From Bacillota bacterium (lineage in GTDB: Bacteria; Bacillota; Sulfobacillia; JAJYWN01; JAJZPE01): DNA of 42,715 nt. The translations under genes and the position numbers were made by a program. Below, piece after piece: positions 4,033 through 16,767 of the stretch. The stretch's first letter is position 1. Each line of letters begins with the position of its first letter. The notes beneath the pieces are model-generated. The model had not been told where the DNA came from, made no database searches, and worked only from the letters and a program-made list of their open reading frames with translations. The stretch covers positions 1 through 42,715 of the forward strand of contig JAJYMC010000007.1 in NCBI GenBank assembly GCA_021787335.1, given 5' to 3'.

Positions 4033-4061
4033 ACGAGGCCCCCAAGCGGGGCCTCGTGTTT
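4033..4061 (+). terminator. Rho-independent terminator of the lipoate operon
   Basis: A perfect 10-bp stem (acgaggcccc / ggggcctcgt, arms 4033-4042 and 4048-4057) with a 5-nt loop is followed by a short T-tract. It lies 17 nt after the lpdA stop. Confidence 0.8.
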
Positions 4062-5267: not shown

Positions 5268-5825
5268 TTGATTTCTACGAACGACTTCAAGACGGGTCTG
5301 ACAGTCGAGATTGACGGTCAAGTCTGGACAGTGGTGGAGTTCCAGCACGTGAAACCGGGGAAGGGCGCCGCTTTCGTCCGGGCGAAGCTGAAGAACCTGA
5401 AGTCGGGGTCCGTCGTCGAGCGGACCTTCAACGCCGGTGAGAAGCTCCCTCGGGCCCACCTGGAACGGCGCGAGATGCAGTACCTGTATCAGGCGGATGA
5501 GATGTACACCTTCATGGACACCGAGAACTATGAGCAGATAACCGTGGCCAAGGACCAGATCGGCGACGGGGTCAAGTTCCTCAAGGAGAACCTGCTCGTC
5601 AATATCCTCTTCTACCAGGGCCAGACCTTCGGCGTCGACCTCCCGAACTCGGTCGTGCTGAAGGTGGTCGAGACCGAACCCGGCGTCCGCGGCGACACCG
5701 CCACCGCCGGCACCAAGCCGGCCAAGCTCGAGACCGGCGCCGTCGTCAAGGTACCCCTGTTCATCAACATCGGCGACGTCCTCAAGGTCGACACGCGGAC
5801 CGGGGACTACATCGAGCGGGCGTAA
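5268..5825 (+). CDS. efp: Translation elongation factor P
   Basis: This 185-aa protein rescues ribosomes stalled at polyproline stretches. It shows the N-terminal KOW-like domain with the [10 protein letters not shown] loop (the site that is modified at a Lys or Arg in many bacteria). It also has the conserved FQHVKPG and two OB domains ending in [17 protein letters not shown]. It uses a TTG start behind agggggagg. EF-P is the usual gene between the M24 peptidase and spoIIIA in Firmicutes. Here an insert of about 15 kb separates efp from the CD1247/spoIIIA block. Confidence 0.97.
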
Positions 5826-5847
5826 TAGGAAAGAGCCAGAAATCAGT

Positions 5848-5877
5848 GAAGCCCCAGGGCGCGAGCCTTGGGGCTTC
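5848..5877 (+). terminator. Terminator after efp
   Basis: Arms 5848-5860 and 5865-5877 pair (gaagccccagggc / gccttggggcttc, one G-T wobble) around a gcga loop and are followed by tgtctatctttgg. It separates efp from the convergent ABC permease gene. Confidence 0.78.
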
Positions 5878-5974
5878 TGTCTATCTTTGGTGCGGGAAGG
5901 GAGAAATGGTCGCTTACCACCTCGCCCGATGGTCCTCGGCCCAACCGACGGCCTTGTCGACGGCGATGGGCCCG

Positions 5975-8314
5975 TCACTCGGCCCGTAGGGCTTCGGCCG
6001 TCGGCAGTCGCCCGGCCCAGACCGCCGCCGGAACGGCCGCCGCCACGGCCAAGACGACCCAGCCGGCGACCAGGGCCACCGAGACCAGTGGCGACATGCT
6101 CACGTCGATGTGTCCGGTGCCGAACTGCGTGGTCATCAACCCGGCGATCCGTGATGTCATCAGGCGCCCCAGGGGGAACCCGATGACTGTCCCCAGGCCG
6201 CCGAGCCAGGCCGCCCCGGCGACGCCGGCGATGAGCGCTTGGAGAGGCGTCATCCCGGCGGCCTTCCGGATCCCGGTCTCCCGGGTCTGCTCGCGGGCCG
6301 TCAGCAGGGTGGCGTTGAGGACGCCCAGGGCGGCGATGACCGCCATCAGGGCGGCCAGGCCTCTGGCCATATGGCCGACGTCAGTCAGGCTCTTGAAGTA
6401 GACGTCCTTGTTCAGGACGCTTGCGGTGACCCGATAGCCGGTGGCCGCGAGGATTGCTCGCTGCCCTTCCGCAGCCGCGACTCCGCTTCTCAGCCTGACC
6501 ACGTAGCTCTTGGGCTGGGCGTCGGGGATGATCTGGCGCAGCGACTCCAAGCTCATGAAGCCGGTCTGACCGAGGCTCATGGTGTACCGATAGACGGCCG
6601 TCACGGTGAGCCGGCCGGGCCGGCCGCCAATCTCGACGCTGACCGGGTCCCCGACCTTCACCCCGGACCGCCGCATGGCCCCGGGGGCCAGCATGATCTC
6701 ACCCGGCCCCGTGGGGAGCCGGCCTTCCAGCAATGTGAAGGGGAAGTCGGTCCACCCGTCTCCGGCCGCCGTCAGTTCGAATCCGAAGTCCGTCCCGGCG
6801 AAGGTCGACGGGATTCGGACGGCGGGGTAGAAGGCCTCGACGGCCGGGGTACCGGAGAGAGACGACCGGACTTCATCCGGCGACATGTCTCGCTGACCGA
6901 CCATGACGTCCCAGTTCAGGCCATGGAGGTCGGGCCGCCGGGCGATGTCGTCGGCCAGTCCGGAGAAGCCGATGGCCGAGGTCAGCGAGGCCAATCCCAC
7001 CACCAGGCTGACGACCGTCAGGACCTGCCTTCCCGACCGGAGCGTGGCGTCCTTGACCCCGAGGACCACGGGCTGCGGGGCGCGTAGCCACCGGGCCAGG
7101 CGGACCGGCAGGGAGGGGCGAGAGGCCGCCTGGGAGGAGCCATCGGTGAGCAGTCCCGCGGGGCGCGAGCGGGCGGCCCGCCAGGCCGGCAACAGGGAGA
7201 AGATCAGGGCGACAGCGGCCGTGACGGCGATGACGCTGAAGGCGAGCGGCCAATCGAAGCGGGTGACCTCGGGTGCGCCCATGGTCGCCGCGAGGGGGCC
7301 CAACTGCCGCTGGGCCAGCACGGCGCCGACGGCCGTCCCGGCGAGCCCGCCGGCCAGTCCCAGGAGCAGGCTCTGGCCCCCGAAGACGAGCAGGGTCTGC
7401 CGGCCGCTGAAGCCGATGGCCTTGAGGACCCCAATCTCCCGCCACTGGGCCAGGACCGCCCCGCCGATGATGTTGCCGATGATGAGGGCCGAGGCCAGCA
7501 CGGCCATGATCCCGAAGACGAGGGTGAACATCATCCCGGTGGCGTTGATCGAGACGAAGCCGTTACGCATGAAGATCCAGTCCATCGCGAAGGCGATCGG
7601 CGAGGCCCCCGTGCCCGCTGGGGACAGTTCCTTGGCCCTGGCCACGAAACTGTCGGTGCCGTCCGGGTCGGCCAGGCGCACGCCCAGGAGCGACTCGGTG
7701 TGGCCGGACCCGTCGAAGAGGGAGCCGAACGTCTCCGGCAGGACGTACATGGAGACCGGATCGAACCACGGGAACTGGTACTCGAACGGGTTCGCCTGCA
7801 GACCGACGACGGTGATCGTCCGCAGGCCGTCGCGCCCGGCCACCTTGACGGTGTCGTCGGGCTTCACCTTGTAGAAGCGGGCCAGCGAGGCTTCCATGAG
7901 GCCGGCATCGGTGTCCGACGCGGTCAGGTCGCGGCCCGCGGTGATGACGTACCGGCCGACCGCGGTATCCCCAGGCCGGCGTCCGACCAGGCGGACCGTT
8001 GGGGTGGTCGTCGCCCCCTCGACGAACAGCTCGGTGGTCGCGGACGACCACACCGGCGAACTTTCGACCACGCCGGGAAGGCGCGTTATCTTGGCGGCTG
8101 TCTCTTCACCGAGTGTCCCGCCTTTGAGGTAGAAGAAGACGTGGGGGCCGTTGGTCCGCGCGAGCAGCCGGTCGTAGGGGCTGGTCGAGGCTTTCAGGCT
8201 GACCAGCCCCAGATACAGCAGGGCGGCCGAAGCGGCCACGGTGGCCAGGATGAGGACCGACTGCCAGGGACGTGACCAGAGATCGGCCAAGGCTTTACGC
8301 AACACTGCGCGCAT
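5975..8314 (-). CDS. ABC transporter permease, FtsX/MacB type with two FtsX domains
   Basis: This 779-aa membrane protein has one TM segment near the N-terminus, an extracytoplasmic MacB-like domain and a first FtsX core at roughly residues 265-385 (including EIGVLKAIGFSGRQ). A second extracytoplasmic part follows, then a second FtsX core at the C-terminus (ETGIRKAAGMTPLQALI). The two ExGxxKAxG coupling helices contact the ATPase. It starts 6 nt after the ATPase stop, so they form one operon under PadR control. Permeases of this type drive mechanotransmission or peptide/antibiotic extrusion rather than bulk import. The substrate is unknown. There is no Bce-type sensor kinase in the window. 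Confidence 0.9.
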   Translation of the reverse strand: MRAVLRKALADLWSRPWQSVLILATVAASAALLYLGLVSLKASTSPYDRLLARTNGPHVFFYLKGGTLGEETAAKITRLPGVVESSPVWSSATTELFVEGATTTPTVRLVGRRPGDTAVGRYVITAGRDLTASDTDAGLMEASLARFYKVKPDDTVKVAGRDGLRTITVVGLQANPFEYQFPWFDPVSMYVLPETFGSLFDGSGHTESLLGVRLADPDGTDSFVARAKELSPAGTGASPIAFAMDWIFMRNGFVSINATGMMFTLVFGIMAVLASALIIGNIIGGAVLAQWREIGVLKAIGFSGRQTLLVFGGQSLLLGLAGGLAGTAVGAVLAQRQLGPLAATMGAPEVTRFDWPLAFSVIAVTAAVALIFSLLPAWRAARSRPAGLLTDGSSQAASRPSLPVRLARWLRAPQPVVLGVKDATLRSGRQVLTVVSLVVGLASLTSAIGFSGLADDIARRPDLHGLNWDVMVGQRDMSPDEVRSSLSGTPAVEAFYPAVRIPSTFAGTDFGFELTAAGDGWTDFPFTLLEGRLPTGPGEIMLAPGAMRRSGVKVGDPVSVEIGGRPGRLTVTAVYRYTMSLGQTGFMSLESLRQIIPDAQPKSYVVRLRSGVAAAEGQRAILAATGYRVTASVLNKDVYFKSLTDVGHMARGLAALMAVIAALGVLNATLLTAREQTRETGIRKAAGMTPLQALIAGVAGAAWLGGLGTVIGFPLGRLMTSRIAGLMTTQFGTGHIDVSMSPLVSVALVAGWVVLAVAAAVPAAVWAGRLPTAEALRAE

Positions 8315-8320
8315 CTTGGC

Positions 8321-9070
8321 TCACCCCCTCGTCCCGAGGAGCCTGGCGGCCAGGCGTCCCATTCGAGCCTCGGCCGGCCGCGACTCCTCGACCAGCCGCC
8401 CGTCCTGCATGACCAGGATACGACCGGCATACGCGGCCACCTTGGGGTCGTGGGTGACCATGACGATGGTCTGCCCCTTATCCCGATGGAGCTCCTGGAA
8501 GAGCCGTAGGACGCCCTGCCCGTTCTCTTGGTCGAGGGCCCCGGTCGGCTCGTCGGCCAACAGGACGGTGGGGCCGTTGATCAGCGCGCGGGCGATGGCC
8601 ACCCGCTGCCGCTCGCCGCCGCTCAGCTTGCCAGGCATCTTCCCGGCGAGTTCGGACAGGCCAAGGACACTCATCAACTCCCGGGCCCGCACCCGGACGG
8701 CGGCCGTGCTCCCCCGGCCCAGCAGGCCCGGTAGTTCGATGTTGGCGACGACATCGAGGTTCTGAATGAGGTTGAAGAACTGAAAGACGATGCCGACGTG
8801 CTTTCGGCGAAAGAGGGCCAACCGTGTCTCGGAGAGGCCATCGATCCGCTGTCCGGCCACCCAGACCTCGCCGGCGTCTGGCCGGTCGATTCCGCCGAGC
8901 ATGTTCAGCAGCGTGGACTTACCGCACCCGGAAGGCCCCATGAGGGCGACGAATTCCCCCGTGGCGACCTCGAGGGAGACGTCCTGAACAGCCGGCCTGG
9001 GGTTACCCTCCCCACGATAGACCCGGGTCAGACCCGTGGCTCGAATGGTGGAGCCCATCGCGCTTGGCAT
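8321..9070 (-). CDS. ABC transporter ATP-binding protein (LolD/MacB class)
   Basis: This 249-aa ATPase energises the adjacent FtsX-type permease. The Walker A is GPSGCGKST, the Q-loop region follows, and the signature is LSGGERQRVAIARAL. The Walker B is VLLADEPTGALD and the switch His is in VMVTHDPKV. The start at 9070 is chosen because aaagggaggtaccagtg places an ideal ribosome-binding site there; longer in-frame starts lie inside padR. The first 68 nt overlap the 3' end of padR in another frame, so regulator, ATPase and permease appear to be made from one transcript. Confidence 0.93.
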   Translation of the reverse strand: MPSAMGSTIRATGLTRVYRGEGNPRPAVQDVSLEVATGEFVALMGPSGCGKSTLLNMLGGIDRPDAGEVWVAGQRIDGLSETRLALFRRKHVGIVFQFFNLIQNLDVVANIELPGLLGRGSTAAVRVRARELMSVLGLSELAGKMPGKLSGGERQRVAIARALINGPTVLLADEPTGALDQENGQGVLRLFQELHRDKGQTIVMVTHDPKVAAYAGRILVMQDGRLVEESRPAEARMGRLAARLLGTRG

Positions 9071-9611
9071 CACTGGTACCTCCCTTTTTATCGCCCCGGC
9101 GGGCGAAGCGCTTCTCCCATAGTTCCAGCCAGGCGAGGTCGGCCTCCAGATGAAGGACGGCTCCTTCAACCAGCAGGCGGAGATCGACCTCCTGTTCGCC
9201 CTGGAACCTCTCGCGAAGGGCCGTCAGCTCCTGCATATCGCGCAGAGCGGCGGCGCGCTGGGCACGGACGATCGCGGCGACATCGCCCCGGCCGGTCCGC
9301 TGGGCCAGGCTGAGTTTGACGAAGAACTCGTCGCGGAGGTCCACCCGCTCCACCGGTTCGGCGAACCACTGCCGCAGGCTGTCGAGGCCGGCGGGGGTGA
9401 GGTGATAGACCTTCGTCTCTGGGCGCTGTTGGTCACGGACCACCAGCGCCCCCTCGATCAGCCCGGCCTTCTCCATCTTGGCGATGGCCGTGTAGACCTG
9501 GCCCACGTTGACCGGCGAGGCCCGACCGAACAGCTTGTCGAGGCCGACCTTCAGGTCGTAGCCGTGCATCGGCTTGCCCGCTAGGAGCCCCAGGAGCGCC
9601 TCTTTGATCAT
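9003..9611 (-). CDS. PadR family transcriptional regulator
   Basis: This is a 202-aa protein. The N-terminal winged helix has the PadR hallmarks: IKEALLGLLAGKPMHGYDLK, then VGQVYTAIAKMEKAGLI and a wing ending KVYHLTPAG. A C-terminal alpha-helical Vir-like domain for dimerisation follows. Start 9611 is preceded by ttttggaggctg. PadR proteins commonly repress an adjacent ABC exporter and release on binding a drug or cell-envelope ligand. The overlapping ABC genes fit this. The C-terminal tail after about residue 180 is charged and unstructured. Confidence 0.9.
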   Translation of the reverse strand: MIKEALLGLLAGKPMHGYDLKVGLDKLFGRASPVNVGQVYTAIAKMEKAGLIEGALVVRDQQRPETKVYHLTPAGLDSLRQWFAEPVERVDLRDEFFVKLSLAQRTGRGDVAAIVRAQRAAALRDMQELTALRERFQGEQEVDLRLLVEGAVLHLEADLAWLELWEKRFARRGDKKGGTSDAKRDGLHHSSHGSDPGLSWGG

Positions 9612-9665
9612 GATGGCAGCCTCCAAAATCGCAGGCAAATGCCAAGCTTAGGGATACTTACAATG

Positions 9666-9675
9666 TAACTAGTTA
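9666..9675. promoter_or_regulatory. Palindrome upstream of padR, candidate operator
   Basis: A perfect 10-bp palindrome, taactagtta, lies in an unusually AT-rich patch (9650-9685), 55 nt upstream of the padR start. Its position fits an autoregulatory operator of the PadR-ABC operon. No strong -35/-10 pair could be fixed by eye. The inference rests on position and symmetry only. Confidence 0.4.
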
Positions 9676-9917
9676 TGATTCTATCCGGGACCCGGCCACC
9701 CGTCAAGGGGGGCGGCCGGAGTCAAATCCGGCGAAACCCCAGGGGGCAGACAAAGTCCCGGGCGCGCCTTTCGGCGGGCCGGGGCCTCTTTTGGGAAGGG
9801 CTATTCCCGAATGGTGGCCTGTGGCGGGAACGCCAAGAAGGCGGGACAGGAATCATCTCCCACGGTCAGCACCACACTAGATGTCGAAGCCGAACCGATG
9901 ATTCGGGGGTGGCGACA
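9676..9917. other. Intergenic region between padR and the GNAT gene
   Basis: About 240 nt with several GC-rich hairpin possibilities (for example around 9751-9790, followed by cctctttt) and a ccgga/tccgg stem near 9716-9731. I could not match it to any riboswitch consensus. The + strand frame is open through it, but the translation is low-complexity and not protein-like. Confidence 0.4.
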
Positions 9918-10478
9918 GTGGGCACCGACTTCCTTGAGGAGATCCGCAACCTGCCCCGGAGGGTGGTCGATAACCTCGAGGGCGGGGTCGGCAACCTGAA
10001 GGTCTATCTGGTCCAGGATTTCAACCTGAGTCTCCTGACCAGGATGGTCAATTTCGGACTGAACATCTTCGGGGAACTGGGCATGGACGAATGGGGACTG
10101 GTTCCCCAGATTCGCCACGGGAACGTCTTTATCCTCAAGGAGGAGGACAAGCGGCGGCTCATCGGCCTGGCCATCCTGATGCGCGACTGGGAGGATCTCG
10201 ACAAGGCCTACCTCTTCGATTTCGCCATCGCGGAGGACTTCCGGGGACAAGGGCTGGGCTATCACTTCCTGCTGACGATCTGCCGGAACCTGAGGGAGCA
10301 GGGCTTCAAGCGGCTCAGCCTGACCGTCGACGTGAACAACTCGGCCGCCATCCATCTCTACCGGGACAAGCTGGGCTTTGAGGTCAGAAGGCGGAGGGAG
10401 AACGAGTACGGCAAGGGTCACGACCGCTATCTGATGACCGCCGATCTGGACCAGGTGCCTGGGGTGGTCAGGCATTAG
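9918..10478 (+). CDS. GNAT family N-acetyltransferase
   Basis: This 186-aa enzyme transfers an acetyl group from acetyl-CoA to an amine. The acetyl-CoA motif A is clear, EDFRGQGLGYHFLLTICRNL (R/Q-x-x-G-x-G). It is followed by SLTVDVNNSAAIHLYRDKLGF, the usual motif B, and an ENEYGKGHDRYLM tail typical of RimI-like and diaminobutyrate-type acetyltransferases. The GTG at 9918 is preferred over GTG 9909 because cgggggtggc is spaced correctly for it. The substrate is unknown. It stands alone and converges with the MFS gene. Confidence 0.82.
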   Translation: MGTDFLEEIRNLPRRVVDNLEGGVGNLKVYLVQDFNLSLLTRMVNFGLNIFGELGMDEWGLVPQIRHGNVFILKEEDKRRLIGLAILMRDWEDLDKAYLFDFAIAEDFRGQGLGYHFLLTICRNLREQGFKRLSLTVDVNNSAAIHLYRDKLGFEVRRRRENEYGKGHDRYLMTADLDQVPGVVRH

Positions 10479-10492
10479 GGCGACACTCAGGG

Positions 10493-11794
10493 TCAGCGCT
10501 GCATCCGCGCCGCTTCGCGGCCACTGGGCGCGGCCCGGACCGGCAGCGCCCACCGGGCGGCGATGACCAGGATGGCCAGTTCCATGGCGGCGGTGGCGTA
10601 GAACAAGAGCGAGTGAGACAACCCATAAGTGAATCCCGCGATGGCGCCGCCGATGGCCATCCCGACACTGAAGCCGCTCGTGGCCAGCCCGGTGTAGCTC
10701 GCCCGCAGGCGGGGCGACGCGGCCTCGACCATGGTCGCCTCCCAGGCCGGAACGGCCAGGTTGATGACCCCGGAGGTCAGCGTCCGCAGCGCGAAGAAAA
10801 CGGCCATGACGCCGGTCAGGGACTGCACAACCCAGAGGGCTGCGCTCAGGAGCTGCGTGACCAGAATGACGACGCGCCGGCCGACCCGGTCGGCCAGGAA
10901 GCCGCCGGCCAGCGTGACCGCAGCCGTGGCGGCGAACCCGAGCGCGGCGTTGAGGGCGATGGCCGTGTAATCGGCCCCGAACCGGTCCTGTAGATATAGG
11001 GCGATGAGCGGGTGGGCGAGACCCATCTCGACGCCGGCGATGAGCCACATGGCCATGATCGCCCAGGCGGCCGCCGACCCGCGCCTGGTCAGGAAATTCC
11101 AAAGCTCGGAGATGCGGGGGCGATCACCATTCCGAGCCCCAGCCTCGCTCGCCTCCGCCGGGTGGGTTGGCGCTGGGTGGCTCTCCCGCAGCCTCAGCGA
11201 GGCCCAGATGGCCAGGGCGAAGAAGGGGAAGGACAGTGCGACCGCTGATGCCCGGCCATAGCGGTCGGCGACCACCCCGCCGATGATGGGGGCGATCAAC
11301 CCGGCCGCCGGCGCAGCCGAGTAGAGTAACCCGTAGAACGATCCACGATTGCCTTTGTGGGAAGCGTCGGCGGTCATGGCCGACCAGGCCGCGCGGCTGA
11401 GGTTGCCGAGCCCCCAGAGGACGGCCACCATGACGAGCCGGAGCCAGCTGTGGGCGATGATGAACAGGACCATGCCCACCGCGTTGGCCGCCGTGGCGGC
11501 CACGACTACCCGCCTTCGTCCGAACCGGTCAGCGAGGAAGCCGCCGGTCAGCCCCGCGACGAAGCCGGTCGCGTCCGTCAGGCTGAAGAAGAGCCCGATG
11601 CGGACGATGTCCAGGCCCGCATCCCTGAGGAAAGCCGGGACGAGTCCGGACGTCATGTGGAAAGCGAAGTTGGTGAGGAAGCTTCGGATGAAGAGCGCCC
11701 TCAGGTTCCACGGAACACGGGCCCAAACCTCAACCCCTCGCCGGAAAACCGCGGCGAGGCGGCTCGAGGACACGATGGTCGGTCTCTCTGACAT
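10493..11794 (-). CDS. Major facilitator superfamily transporter (probable drug efflux)
   Basis: This 433-aa protein has twelve predicted membrane helices. The MFS motif A occurs twice, GGFLADRFGRRRV between helices 2 and 3 and GGFLADRVGRRVV in the second half, showing the two-bundle repeat. The ATG is at 11794. The nearly 190-nt leader contains a 19-codon ORF with a strong ribosome-binding site and then a terminator hairpin 36 nt before this start. That arrangement is typical of antibiotic-inducible resistance genes, so I infer a drug exporter induced by ribosome-targeting compounds. The substrate is not readable from sequence. Confidence 0.88.
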   Translation of the reverse strand: MSERPTIVSSSRLAAVFRRGVEVWARVPWNLRALFIRSFLTNFAFHMTSGLVPAFLRDAGLDIVRIGLFFSLTDATGFVAGLTGGFLADRFGRRRVVVAATAANAVGMVLFIIAHSWLRLVMVAVLWGLGNLSRAAWSAMTADASHKGNRGSFYGLLYSAAPAAGLIAPIIGGVVADRYGRASAVALSFPFFALAIWASLRLRESHPAPTHPAEASEAGARNGDRPRISELWNFLTRRGSAAAWAIMAMWLIAGVEMGLAHPLIALYLQDRFGADYTAIALNAALGFAATAAVTLAGGFLADRVGRRVVILVTQLLSAALWVVQSLTGVMAVFFALRTLTSGVINLAVPAWEATMVEAASPRLRASYTGLATSGFSVGMAIGGAIAGFTYGLSHSLLFYATAAMELAILVIAARWALPVRAAPSGREAARMQR

Positions 11795-11829
11795 AAGTCA
11801 AACCCCTCGATGGGGAGCGGGCACAGAAA

Positions 11830-11853
11830 GGCCCGGGCGGGAACGCCCGGGCC
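11830..11853 (-). terminator. Intrinsic terminator in the MFS 5' leader (attenuator)
   Basis: A perfect 10-bp G+C stem (ggcccgggcg / cgcccgggcc) with a 4-nt loop is followed on the - strand by tttctgtg. It lies between the small leader ORF and the MFS start, so it would stop transcription before the gene unless disrupted. The upstream segment gccgggtggcc (- strand) could pair with its first arm as an antiterminator. That pairing is an inference. Confidence 0.72.
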
Positions 11854-11895
11854 ACTTAGCGCACAAACAAAGCTGGCCACCCGGCACCCCTTGGA

Positions 11896-11955
11896 CTACC
11901 GCGTATGAGGTTGGCTCTGCGCGCCTTGGGCAAGGCACCGGTTGGTCAGGATCAT
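11896..11955 (-). CDS. Leader peptide of the MFS gene (19 aa)
   Basis: A 20-codon ORF reads MILTNRCLAQGAQSQPHTR and ends in TAG. Its start is preceded by ccgaggaggtttcgtcac, one of the strongest ribosome-binding sites in the window. Its codons contain a small gcctt/aaggc hairpin (11923-11936). The stop lies 43 nt before the terminator hairpin. I infer a regulatory peptide: stalled or slowed ribosomes would change folding and release transcription of the exporter. The peptide sequence matches no arrest peptide I recognise. Confidence 0.62.
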   Translation of the reverse strand: MILTNRCLAQGAQSQPHTR

Positions 11956-12047
11956 GTGACGAAACCTCCTCGGAACTGGAAATCACCAAGCTCATTGTAA
12001 CCACCGGAGGCCCGCCGGTCAAGCAAGGCAGGCAGAGCAGGCCTTTC

Positions 12048-12983
12048 CTATGCCGCGATCTCTCGACCGAGGCCGCTGATAAGGCTTGCCGACACCCCGA
12101 TGGCGAAGAGGATACCCGCGGCAGGCAGAGCGAAGGTGAGGGCCGTCAGGTGTTCGATGAGCTCCAAGAGCCAGATGGTGATGACGAGGCCCCTGGTCTT
12201 TGGAGCCGCCGCCATCCCGGGCATGGGCTTGTGTTGCTGTTGTTTGACGGCGTAGGGCTTGAGCCACCGGATGATCAGCGCGCTCAGCAGGAGGAAGAAA
12301 ACGATCAGCACCAGCAGGAACAGGTCGGAGAACGGCCACTCGATGCCGAGCCCCTCGCCGCCCCAGAAGGTTCCGAAAGAAACGAGCATGATCCCGGTGA
12401 TGAACTTGAGCGTGTTCTCGGGAATCCGGGTGAGCGGCGCGCGGATCGCCAGGCCAAGGCCCACGACAACGAGAAACGCCAGCAGGGCCCCCAGCGTCGC
12501 CGCCCAGAGTCCCGAAGCTTCGCCGGTCGCGGCGGTGGCGCCGAAGGTGATGACGATGAAGGCCACTTCCAGCCCTTCGAGCAGCACGCTCTTGAAGGAA
12601 GTGACGAACCCTAACCCGCTGAACTGGCCGGGGTCGATCTCGCCGCGGGCTTTGAGCTCCCGCATCCGATCTTCGTAGATCGCCGCCTCGTCGTGCATCG
12701 CCTTGAGGCCGCTGTATCGGAGCAGGGATTTCTTGAGCCACTGCAGGCCGAACAGGGCGAGCACGAGGCCAATGACAAGGCGCAGGACCGCGATGGGGAT
12801 GAAGAGGACCAGCGTTGAGCCGAAGACGGCGACCAGGGCCGCCAGGGCCAGCATGGCGGCGCCGGCCCCCAATAGGCTGCTTTTCCAGTTGATGGTGACG
12901 CCGACGACCAAGACGATCGTCAGGGCTTCGTCGAACTCAACCGTCGAAGCGAGAAAAGACGGCAATACGGAGGACCAGGCCAT
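12048..12983 (-). CDS. Multi-span membrane protein (COG4280-like), function unknown
   Basis: This 311-aa protein has about seven hydrophobic segments. An acidic intramembrane motif occurs twice, FLASTVEFDEALTIVLVVG near the N-terminus and KSVLLEGLEVAFIVITFG in the middle, suggesting an internal duplication. The paired Glu residues resemble those of cation permeases such as Ftr1 or GDT1 families, but the exact motifs differ. A charged cytoplasmic loop (LKAMHDEAAIYEDRMRELKA) separates the halves. Start 12983 has gcgaggagattgatc. It resembles proteins annotated only as uncharacterised membrane proteins. A metal or small-cation transporter is plausible but unproven. Confidence 0.7.
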   Translation of the reverse strand: MAWSSVLPSFLASTVEFDEALTIVLVVGVTINWKSSLLGAGAAMLALAALVAVFGSTLVLFIPIAVLRLVIGLVLALFGLQWLKKSLLRYSGLKAMHDEAAIYEDRMRELKARGEIDPGQFSGLGFVTSFKSVLLEGLEVAFIVITFGATAATGEASGLWAATLGALLAFLVVVGLGLAIRAPLTRIPENTLKFITGIMLVSFGTFWGGEGLGIEWPFSDLFLLVLIVFFLLLSALIIRWLKPYAVKQQQHKPMPGMAAAPKTRGLVITIWLLELIEHLTALTFALPAAGILFAIGVSASLISGLGREIAA

Positions 12984-13054
12984 GATCAATCTCCTCGCCG
13001 CTTGACATAAGATGCTATCTCTCGGAACGATTATACAGCCGGCGAAGAGTGGGC

Positions 13055-13870
13055 TCAAGTGCCTGCGTCGAGCACGTTCTCTGGGGCCAGGGACCAGGAT
13101 TCACGCAGCAGTCCGCCGAAGCCGGCCAGCACCGCTTCGGCGGCGTCGACTGCCGCCGACATCAGTGCCTGCGGCTCGCCGCCGCCGGGCCCTCCGTCGC
13201 AGTGGGCCGTGGCCAGCCGCTCCAGCGAAGCCGCCGTGGCAGGGTCCGCCAAGCGCACCGTTTGGATGGCGTACTTTGTCTTCTCCGGCCAGTGACGCCG
13301 CGCCACCCAGAACGCCTCGAGCAACTGACCAACCAACTCGGCGCGGAGAAGCCCAACGGCTCCCACGTCGGGTTGCAGCAGCGACACAGCGTCCAGCAAG
13401 TCGTCCAGCGCCTCGGTGACGCGGAAGCGGGCCCGCCTGATAGTCGTAGCGTCGGCCGGGTCCGGCCCGCGGGCCACGTCGGTGGCGGCCTCGGCGCGCA
13501 ACTCGGCGACCAGACCGTCCGGGTCCCACAGGACCACGCTTTCCGCCATCATCCGCTGGACCGACCCGACCCGCCTTTCACCGAAGGCCTTCCGGAACCA
13601 CGCCGGGGGGCCTTCCATCGTCTGGACCTCGGTCCCGTCGACCCATTCGGCCGCCCGCCGGAATACCCGGCCCGACGTCACCACGAGCAGATCCACGTCG
13701 CTCCTGGGCCCGGCGCAGCCTCTGGCCCACGAGCCAGCCAGGGCGACGCCGCGAACATCGGGGCGGGCCCCGAGTCTCCCCAGGACACCGACCACTGTGT
13801 CGGTCGCCTTGTTGGGCATCCCTTTGGGCAGACCATGCGCTCGAAAATCGCCGGCCTTCAGACCTACCAC
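13055..13870 (-). CDS. Nucleotidyltransferase-domain protein
   Basis: This is a protein of about 271 aa. The N-terminal part has the pol-beta/MNT nucleotidyltransferase signature GSWARGCAGPRSDVDLLVV (GS, then DxD metal ligands, residues about 46-62). The helical C-terminal half resembles the substrate-binding helices of aminoglycoside or HEPN-associated transferases. The start is uncertain: GTG 13870 is the longest and ATG 13819 is shorter and keeps the whole domain. It stands alone without a HEPN partner, so a toxin-antitoxin role is not supported. The substrate is unknown. Confidence 0.72.
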   Translation of the reverse strand: MVGLKAGDFRAHGLPKGMPNKATDTVVGVLGRLGARPDVRGVALAGSWARGCAGPRSDVDLLVVTSGRVFRRAAEWVDGTEVQTMEGPPAWFRKAFGERRVGSVQRMMAESVVLWDPDGLVAELRAEAATDVARGPDPADATTIRRARFRVTEALDDLLDAVSLLQPDVGAVGLLRAELVGQLLEAFWVARRHWPEKTKYAIQTVRLADPATAASLERLATAHCDGGPGGGEPQALMSAAVDAAEAVLAGFGGLLRESWSLAPENVLDAGT

Positions 13871-13935
13871 CCCCGCCCGGAAAGGCTGGGATAGCCCTTC
13901 GTCGGTCCGGAGATTTTTCCTTCCAGAAAGGGAAA

Positions 13936-13955
13936 GGCCCCGCCTGGGCGGGGCC
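13936..13955 (-). terminator. Terminator of the alpha/beta hydrolase gene
   Basis: A 9-bp stem ggccccgcc/ggcggggcc with a 2-nt loop is followed on the - strand by tttccctttct. It lies about 40 nt after the hydrolase stop. Confidence 0.7.
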
Positions 13956-13997
13956 GGTGCATCTTCAGCCGGGGCAAGTCAGCGGCATGGCGGCGGG

Positions 13998-15422
13998 TCA
14001 GGGCCCGCGCTTGTCGAAGGTCACTTCGGGGAATTGTGCGGGCGGCCCATCAAGCAGCGGGGCCGGCTGGCCCTTCAGGTACCGGTCGAAGAACGCCAGG
14101 GAATAGGCATTGACGATGTCGTGGCCCCGGTTGGCATCGATTGGCCCGGTCATGCCCAGCCGGGAACTGAGCGGAGTGAAGAACGGCAGATCGGAGAAGT
14201 TCGCGTGGAACATGCCGGCTACCAGCACTAGGTAGGCGTCCCTCGGCTTGCTCTCGAACACCGCCCGCGGGGTGGTCACAGTCTCGTCGATGTCTTCCTG
14301 GGTCCAGTGCTCGAGCTTCATGTACTTCGCGTCTCGGCTGATCCACATGGCCGGCTGTTTCAGGCCCGACTGGACCACATCGGCGGGCATGAAGACATCC
14401 ATCATCAGGGAGGCCCGGATCCGCGGATCCAGCTTCGAGGCTTCGGCGGTGATGGCGCCGCCCAGCGAGACCCCGAACATGCCGGTTCGCTGAAGGTCTA
14501 GCTGCCCGGTCAGGATGCCGTTCGGGTCGGCCTGGTTCAGGTCGGCGAGCTGATCCAGCGCGAAGCTGACGTCCTGCGCCAGGAAGGGGATGGCAACGTC
14601 ATAGAACTTGGGGTGCCCGGGATGCGCAGGGTCGAACATGCGGGGGTCGAAGGCCACCAGGCGCCCATCGGGGAAGACCACCCCGCTCGAGGCATACGGG
14701 TGGTCGATGGTCGCCACGATGTAGCCGTGCGACACCAACTCCTCAACCTGGAAGGTGTTGTGTCCCCGGAAGCCAGAGCGTCCGTGCGAGAAGATGAGCA
14801 CGGGGTAGGGGCCGCCATCCGCCACGGGCGCGGACGGGACCCCGTTGGTGGTGACGTACTTCACGTGCCCGAAGATGAACCTCGGCAGATGCAGGAGATC
14901 CGCCACCGACCAAAGGACGCGGGCATCCTGCACGTAGGGAGCACGCCGTGCCGACGGGTTTCCCTCGGCCGGATACCAGACCTGCACCATCAGTTCACGA
15001 TGGTCATTCGGATCGGCGGTGAAGATCTCCGGACGACTGACATCCACCCAGTGATAGGTCATCGTGCCGATCGCGTAAGGCCCGCTCGGGCGCGGGAAGC
15101 GGATCACGGGGAAGACGATCGGCAGGGCGATGGAGACCACCAGCCCGAGTGCGCCCAGCCCGATGGCCAGGCCGATGGCAAGCCGATGGGTCAAGCCCTG
15201 ACCGGCTGTCCCGCCCGCCGGTGCGATCTTCTGCCACAGCCAGACCAGGAAGAACAGCCCGGTCAACACGTACGCTGGGACCATCTGCCAGCGCGGGCCC
15301 TCCACCGCCGCCTGGGCGACGGCGATCAGCACTACGGCAGGCGCCAAATAGCGCACCCAGCGCATTGCGCTGGGCACCGGAACCACTAAGACGAGGAATG
15401 TCAGCAGATCAGCCAATGACAA
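13998..15422 (-). CDS. Membrane-anchored alpha/beta hydrolase (PAF-acetylhydrolase-like)
   Basis: This 474-aa protein begins with about three hydrophobic segments (residues 1-130), then a long hydrolase domain. The oxyanion/His-Gly region is VLIFSHGRSGFRG. The nucleophile elbow is GVSLGG, and a downstream His (GMFHANFSDLP) can complete the triad. The spacing and the HGRSGF motif resemble platelet-activating-factor acetylhydrolase and dienelactone hydrolase-like esterases. The TTG at 15422 is kept because it preserves the first membrane segment, though no good ribosome-binding site precedes it; ATG 15365 is the alternative. The substrate is unknown. Confidence 0.75.
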   Translation of the reverse strand: MSLADLLTFLVLVVPVPSAMRWVRYLAPAVVLIAVAQAAVEGPRWQMVPAYVLTGLFFLVWLWQKIAPAGGTAGQGLTHRLAIGLAIGLGALGLVVSIALPIVFPVIRFPRPSGPYAIGTMTYHWVDVSRPEIFTADPNDHRELMVQVWYPAEGNPSARRAPYVQDARVLWSVADLLHLPRFIFGHVKYVTTNGVPSAPVADGGPYPVLIFSHGRSGFRGHNTFQVEELVSHGYIVATIDHPYASSGVVFPDGRLVAFDPRMFDPAHPGHPKFYDVAIPFLAQDVSFALDQLADLNQADPNGILTGQLDLQRTGMFGVSLGGAITAEASKLDPRIRASLMMDVFMPADVVQSGLKQPAMWISRDAKYMKLEHWTQEDIDETVTTPRAVFESKPRDAYLVLVAGMFHANFSDLPFFTPLSSRLGMTGPIDANRGHDIVNAYSLAFFDRYLKGQPAPLLDGPPAQFPEVTFDKRGP

Positions 15423-15528
15423 CAGGGTTTCGAAAGGTCTCGTCTTCCTGCCTCCCCGTGCGATGGTGTAGCGGAAACGCCCTCCCCTTAATAACTCGGG
15501 AGAGCTCTGAAAAGTTTCCCGCCGCGCC

Positions 15529-16767
15529 TCAGCCTGCTTCCTTCGCCACCTGCAGCCCGCCGGTGAAGAACTTGTCGTGAATGGCCCGGACGGCCAGGTC
15601 GGCCTGGTCCCGCGCGATGAGGCAGGAGACCTTTATCTCCGACGAGCTTATCATCTGGATGTTGATGCCGTTCTCGGCCAGGGCCTGGAACATGGCCGTG
15701 GCCACGCCGGCCTTCTCCTTCAGCCCGATGCCGACGATGGAGACCTTGGCCACGTCGCGGTCGCAGTCGACCCCGCGGGCCCCGATGTCCACGATGGTCT
15801 GGCCGAGGATGGCCATGGCCCGCTCGACGTCCACATCGGAGACGGTGAAGGACATGTCGTTGACGTGGTCCCGACGCATGCTCTGGATGATCATGTCGAC
15901 GTTGACGCCCGCCCCGGCCAGGTCCGCGAGGATCCGGTAGGCCATGCCCGGGCGGTCCGGGACCTCGATGATGGCCAGCCGGGCGATGTTCTTGTCGCTG
16001 GTCACCCCACTCACCTGAAGGACATCTTCCATCTTGTCGGCCTCCTCGACCAACGTCCCGGGGACGTCGGCGAAACTCGAAAGGACCTCCAGCCGGACCC
16101 CGTACTGCTTGGCCAGCTCCACCGAGCGTGGGTGGAGGACCTGGGCACCCAAACTGGCCAGTTCGAGCATCTCCTCGTGGGAGATCCGGTCGAGCTTATA
16201 GGCGCCCTTGACGACGCGCGGGTCGGCGGTGTAGACCCCATCCACGTCGGTGTATATCTCGCAGCGGACCGCGCCGAGGGCGGCGGCCAGGGCCACGGCG
16301 GTCGTGTCCGACCCGCCCCGGCCGAGGGTGGTGATGTCGCCGTTGCGGTCGATACCCTGAAAACCGGCGACGATGACGATCTTGCCGGCCTTCAGTTCAC
16401 GGGCCAGCCGGCGCGACTTGACCTCGACGATGCGGGCCTTCTTGTGGATGTCGTCGGTGACGATGCCGACCTGCGCCGCCGTCAGCGAGACGACCGGGCG
16501 CCCGGCTGCTTCGATGGCCATGGCCAGGAGGGAGATGGAGATCTGCTCGCCGACGGCCAGAAGCATGTCGAACTCGCGGTCGGAGGGCGAGGGGTTGACG
16601 CGGCGGGCCAGTTCGATGAGGTGGTCGGTCGTATCGCCCTGGGCGGAGACGACGACCACCATCTGATGCCCTTCATCGGCCGCCCGGATGACCCGGCGGG
16701 CGACGTTGCGGAGACGTCCCTCGTCGGCCACCGAGGTGCCGCCGTATTTCTGGACGAGCAGGCTCAA
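15529..16767 (-). CDS. lysC: Aspartokinase
   Basis: This 412-aa enzyme phosphorylates aspartate, the first step to lysine, threonine and methionine. The N-terminal kinase domain starts with LLVQKYGGTSVADEGR and contains GRGGSDTTAVALA and IYTDVDGVYTADPR. Two C-terminal ACT domains (about 265-330 and 340-405) provide feedback control, with the second holding VSIVGIGLKEKAGVATAMF. The start is a TTG forming a TTGA overlap with the hom stop, with gggga upstream, so it is translationally coupled to hom. The open frame continues antisense-like upstream but encodes nothing conserved. Confidence 0.95.
   Translation of the reverse strand: MSLLVQKYGGTSVADEGRLRNVARRVIRAADEGHQMVVVVSAQGDTTDHLIELARRVNPSPSDREFDMLLAVGEQISISLLAMAIEAAGRPVVSLTAAQVGIVTDDIHKKARIVEVKSRRLARELKAGKIVIVAGFQGIDRNGDITTLGRGGSDTTAVALAAALGAVRCEIYTDVDGVYTADPRVVKGAYKLDRISHEEMLELASLGAQVLHPRSVELAKQYGVRLEVLSSFADVPGTLVEEADKMEDVLQVSGVTSDKNIARLAIIEVPDRPGMAYRILADLAGAGVNVDMIIQSMRRDHVNDMSFTVSDVDVERAMAILGQTIVDIGARGVDCDRDVAKVSIVGIGLKEKAGVATAMFQALAENGINIQMISSSEIKVSCLIARDQADLAVRAIHDKFFTGGLQVAKEAG

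Follow-up and report, generated by a model that had tools for sequence, protein, structure and literature searches.

Attenuation is known to act on pumps of the major facilitator superfamily (MFS) and of the ABC type, mefA being one example (PMC5418344, PMC10314930), and further exporter leaders are described in PMC5418344. In Bacillus subtilis, the vmlR leader is built of an anti-antiterminator holding an upstream open reading frame (uORF), an antiterminator, a terminator and a hairpin that sequesters the Shine-Dalgarno (SD) sequence (PMC9226507). For the leader peptides MefAL and ErmDL, an Arg/Lys-X-Arg/Lys motif of macrolide arrest has been described (PMC10314930). In this study, we report a leader of comparable anatomy upstream of an MFS gene in an uncultivated Bacillota genome. 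The upstream promoter, the lack of any promoter-like site from terminator to gene, and the retention of the terminator in an ortholog make it likely that the leader is an attenuator. That it is specifically a ribosome-mediated transcription attenuator is the reading we prefer, with our confidence evenly divided.

The window (the whole stretch of DNA analysed, 42,715 nucleotides) carries the MFS gene on the minus strand, its start at 11794 being separated by 253 nt from a predicted permease gene of the OFeT_1 family (PF16955) that ends at 12048. All the leader elements lie on the minus strand, in the order promoter, SD, uORF, hairpin, and the SD and ATG of the MFS gene (Table 1). The MFS start (MSERP) is also present in the ortholog, and the protein matched MFS families of a general kind, whereas none of the specific drug families passed its cutoff. 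Further upstream, at 13058-13870 (minus strand), a gene encodes a protein with a nucleotidyltransferase domain that resembles the ANT(4')-I and HalB models only weakly; it precedes the MFS gene in synteny here and in the genome of the ortholog.

Table 1. Elements of the leader and the MFS gene, with positions in the window
Feature	Positions	Strand	Remarks
Sigma-70-type promoter, TTGACC-N17-TACAAT	11994..12022	-	10/12 matches
SD of the uORF, AGGAGGT, in CCGAGGAGGTTTCGT	11964..11970	-	
Leader ORF (uORF) MILTNRCLAQGAQSQPHTR, 19 codons	11896..11955	-	ATG 11955, stop TAG 11898-11896
Predicted anti-antiterminator P1, 5' strand, inside uORF codons 11-14	11916..11925	-	predicted fold only
Conserved block CAAGGGGTGCCGGGTGG	11877..11893	-	kept in the ortholog beside the terminator
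Predicted antiterminator, GGCCAGCUU (11878-11870) with AAGUGGCC (11857-11850)	11850..11878	-	predicted; overlaps P1 and the terminator base
Predicted P1, 3' strand, partner of 11925-11916	11858..11867	-	predicted fold only
Intrinsic terminator hairpin GGCCCGGGCG-TTCC-CGCCCGGGCC, tail TTTCTGTG	11830..11853	-	10 G-C pairs
Hairpin CCCC-AUCGA-GGGG over the MFS SD	11803..11815	-	not in the original prediction
MFS transporter, 433 aa	10493..11794	-	PF07690, E 7.9e-42

The promoter, which the original prediction did not include, would place the transcription start at about 11987; a search over 3 kb gave two promoter-like sites, where 0.2 would be expected. The 19-codon ORF had been credited with an excellent ribosome-binding site, and this was borne out: its SD pairs with the anti-SD at -12.8 kcal/mol, ranking 15 of 3006 among the ATG, GTG and TTG positions of the window, whereas the SD of the MFS start is weaker (-7.8). 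When 12047-11854 (minus strand) was shuffled 5000 times by dinucleotides, an ATG uORF with an equally good SD arose in 4 shuffles, such a uORF with any start codon in 38, an equally good promoter in 1, and promoter and such a uORF jointly, in this 194-nt stretch, in none; because the thresholds were chosen after inspection of the sequence, these counts are indicative. One hairpin scan of the window found this to be the only short ORF with an SD before a terminator-like hairpin. Judged by its sequence, the leader has the promoter and the putatively translated short ORF that characterise ribosome-mediated attenuators.

The peptide MILTNRCLAQGAQSQPHTR contains neither the Arg/Lys-X-Arg/Lys (+x+) macrolide-arrest motif (PMC10314930) nor a single-residue run as in amino-acid biosynthesis leaders of the trp and his type; Gln occurs three times, never adjacent. 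When 153 further genomes of the class were searched for the nucleotide pattern of the uORF, none matched. Stalling in the presence of chloramphenicol or linezolid is favoured after Ala, Ser or Thr; Ala9 and Ala12 of the peptide fall in the relevant stretch, to which we attach little weight.

The terminator had been described as a perfect GC hairpin 43 nt beyond the ORF, with the transporter start 36 nt further on. The perfect stem and the order of the elements were confirmed, but the gaps are 42 nt (uORF stop to hairpin) and 35 nt (hairpin to MFS ATG), and the U tract (TTTCTGTG) is short and weak. From the uORF stop to the MFS ATG, no pair of -35 and -10 elements reaches 7/12 matches; an intrinsic terminator stands between the short ORF and the gene, with no internal promoter-like site. 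Since there is no promoter-like site in the 35 nt from terminator to ATG, the MFS gene can be transcribed only by read-through of the terminator, barring some different type of promoter concealed before it. This holds independently of the role of the uORF, and as the gene needs read-through, attenuation is the best reading. No similar terminators were seen upstream of other MFS genes of the same genome, a comparison that was not counted because its choice of frames was unreliable.

Other regulatory elements were noted elsewhere in the window. A c-di-AMP riboswitch (ydaO/yuaA leader, RF00379, 51.6 bits) lies at 28521-28334 (minus strand), followed on the same strand by a 234-aa ORF (28324-27620). 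Just past this ORF is a strong terminator (27562-27536, minus strand; 11 bp, seven T), and some 30 nt beyond it a 430-aa ORF probably starts (27505). The terminator may simply close the preceding gene, or this may be another case of read-through. The hairpin at 4033-4057 has T-rich tails on both strands, with possible long ORFs downstream on each side (4116, plus; 3988, minus), and resembles a two-way terminator.

In the mechanism that we propose, RNA polymerase would start at about 11987 and stop by default at the hairpin 11853-11830, and ribosomes would load strongly on the 19-codon uORF. With translation to the stop codon, or with none, codons 11-14 would pair with 11867-11858 (P1) and the terminator would form. 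A ribosome stalled at about codons 8-12 would block P1, so that the GGCCAGCUU/AAGUGGCC antiterminator could form and allow read-through into the MFS gene, whose translation may additionally be restrained by the second small hairpin over its SD. As inducer we propose a translation inhibitor, or some other stress on translation, that the pump would export or relieve. We infer the stalling as well as the three-way switch and its inducing signal, and induction of the MFS gene by a translation inhibitor, as originally predicted, is at present unsupported speculation by analogy with known leaders.

Folding of the leader with and without a ribosome was among the checks that the original prediction had suggested. 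The upper six terminator pairs are compatible with the antiterminator helix, and the fair comparison is therefore between the antiterminator plus short stem (-20.2) and the whole terminator stem (-24.7). In the drawn fold, the advantage of the terminator over the antiterminator was about 8 kcal/mol without a ribosome, 11-13 kcal/mol with a ribosome on codons 2-6, and smallest, 3.7-4.1 kcal/mol, with the ribosomal P-site on codons 8-12. With the antiterminated state defined generically, the effect of the ribosome was only 2.5 kcal/mol, a swing matched in 159/400 shuffles (minimum 75/400, range 23/400); as the same procedure gave no signal on the E. coli trp leader (trpL), a proven attenuator that served as positive control, these counts speak neither for nor against a switch. 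The drawn antiterminator was equalled by 291/2000 upstream shuffles in the window, and its counterpart in the ortholog, which can be drawn as GGGCCUU/GAGGCCC, by 682/2000; single switch helices are common in such G+C-rich sequence. By inspection, the antiterminator pair beside GGCC is U-A in the ortholog and A-U in the window, a difference that offers a hint from one comparison only. A vmlR-like pairing between the conserved block and the region of the MFS SD did not exceed shuffles (210 and 143 of 1000).

An ortholog above about 50% identity was found in one genome only, a same-genus MAG (G001; JAJZPE01, 'Bacillota bacterium isolate SKS1.bin113'); two apparent paralogs in this genome were rejected as one gene across two contigs, which overlap by 312 bp at 99.4%. 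There the locus has neither the permease gene nor the promoter nor the start of the uORF. Similarity of the leaders starts at about 11893, with weaker resemblance just before, and covers the block CARGGGGTGCCGGGT(G)GGCC, the terminator, in which the only differences are G-C to G-U and leave the pairing intact, and the CCCC/GGGG hairpin over the SD, which has a longer loop in the MAG. The terminator lies there about 97 nt past the nucleotidyltransferase stop, and the last 300 nt upstream contain no uORF with a good SD and no promoter-like site, so that it would act, if at all, through read-through of upstream transcripts. The retained stretch is 72% identical against 74% for the coding sequence and hence shows no extra conservation overall. 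On this comparison of two genomes, the segment may have been either gained in the window or lost in the MAG. In the same comparison, window stretches 11893-13055, 13769-15533 and 5821-10490 have no nucleotide match; they hold an OFeT-like gene, a PAF-acetylhydrolase-like gene and a GNAT/PadR/ABC-transporter region, as if small gene cassettes had come and gone around a conserved MFS gene.

Conservation of the leader ORF, which would support an attenuator of this kind without strictly defining it, was thus not seen in the one ortholog, and this makes the peptide less credible as the regulator. The alignment of orthologous leaders proposed in the original prediction retained the hairpin but not the small ORF in the single testable case, one of the results that it had named as refuting it. 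Its attenuator stands by anatomy, while control by the peptide is weakened by the absence of the uORF from the sole ortholog; we regard such control as plausible, at about even odds.

A less likely alternative is a constitutive partial terminator, which would end upstream transcripts and pass a fixed fraction on to the MFS gene, the uORF having come with an inserted segment and having no regulatory role. The MAG, with its terminator but neither a well-served uORF nor a promoter-like site, speaks for this alternative, and so does switch folding that does no better than shuffles (by a procedure equally silent on trpL). Against it are the dedicated promoter and the strong SD of the window, both very unlikely by chance and placed as in a leader.

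The leader may instead be an attenuator under non-peptide control, in which a protein, an amino-acid or tRNA signal or a small molecule acts on the block CAAGGGGTGCCGGGTGG. The ortholog, in keeping block and terminator but not the uORF, fits this second alternative, which is distinctly unlikely. With gathering and relaxed Rfam thresholds, no leader family was matched at gathering score and the weak matches look like chance; overall conservation of the retained stretch equals that of coding sequence, and the block was found in such a context in just two genomes of the class. Matches to the block GGGGTGCCGGGTGG elsewhere were set aside, as most looked on inspection like stretches of coding sequence. 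When the leader DNA was compared with 61 genomes, the same-genus locus was the only convincing match, and the leaders of 15 distant homologs in the class (about 26-35% identity) showed no similar arrangement of SD, uORF and terminator. No MFS ortholog was found at E 1e-40 in 398 sampled genomes of the phylum or in viral contigs, and in a genome with an order-level homolog of the preceding gene (G003), a different gene follows, without such a leader. That the uORF is a functional small protein or gene relic unlinked to the terminator is very improbable, its strong SD and start notwithstanding, given 19 residues with a hydrophilic C-terminal half and no match in the class to the uORF start by DNA pattern.

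Taking ribosome-mediated attenuation as the preferred reading, a further and rather unlikely step would be to see in the uORF product a new arrest sequence, around Cys-Leu-Ala-Gln-Gly-Ala, at which stalling responds to a drug or to stress and so controls the exporter; the peptide and the neighbouring gene would then have come or gone together as a cassette, the terminator part staying in place. Should the reading prove right, the locus would contribute an inducible exporter and an arrest peptide of unknown type from a lineage represented here by metagenome-assembled genomes only, and would suggest that an attenuator can gain or lose its sensor part independently of its terminator. At present there is a single locus, whose layout is plausible and familiar.

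Among the systems described, cmlA likewise has a leader attenuator for a chloramphenicol export gene, but its leader acts on translation and not on a terminator (PMC5418344). In bmrCD, as Reilman 2014 is related in PMC9226507 and PMC5418344, read-through into a drug exporter is likewise governed by the translation of a short ORF ahead of it; this ORF is the gene bmrB, and the exporter belongs to the ABC type. The closest system by target is mefA/msrD (MefAL, MsrDL; PMC10314930), in which a leader peptide and an intrinsic terminator precede an MFS pump (mefA), although MefAL (MTASMRLR) carries the arrest motif, the present peptide does not, and the two are unrelated. The vmlR uORF encodes the tripeptide MIN before an ABC-F gene, as against 19 codons and an MFS pump here, and stalling, pausing and induction belong to vmlR, the present leader being known from its sequence alone. 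By layout, vmlR is nevertheless the closest known system, as the leader drawn here has the same four parts.
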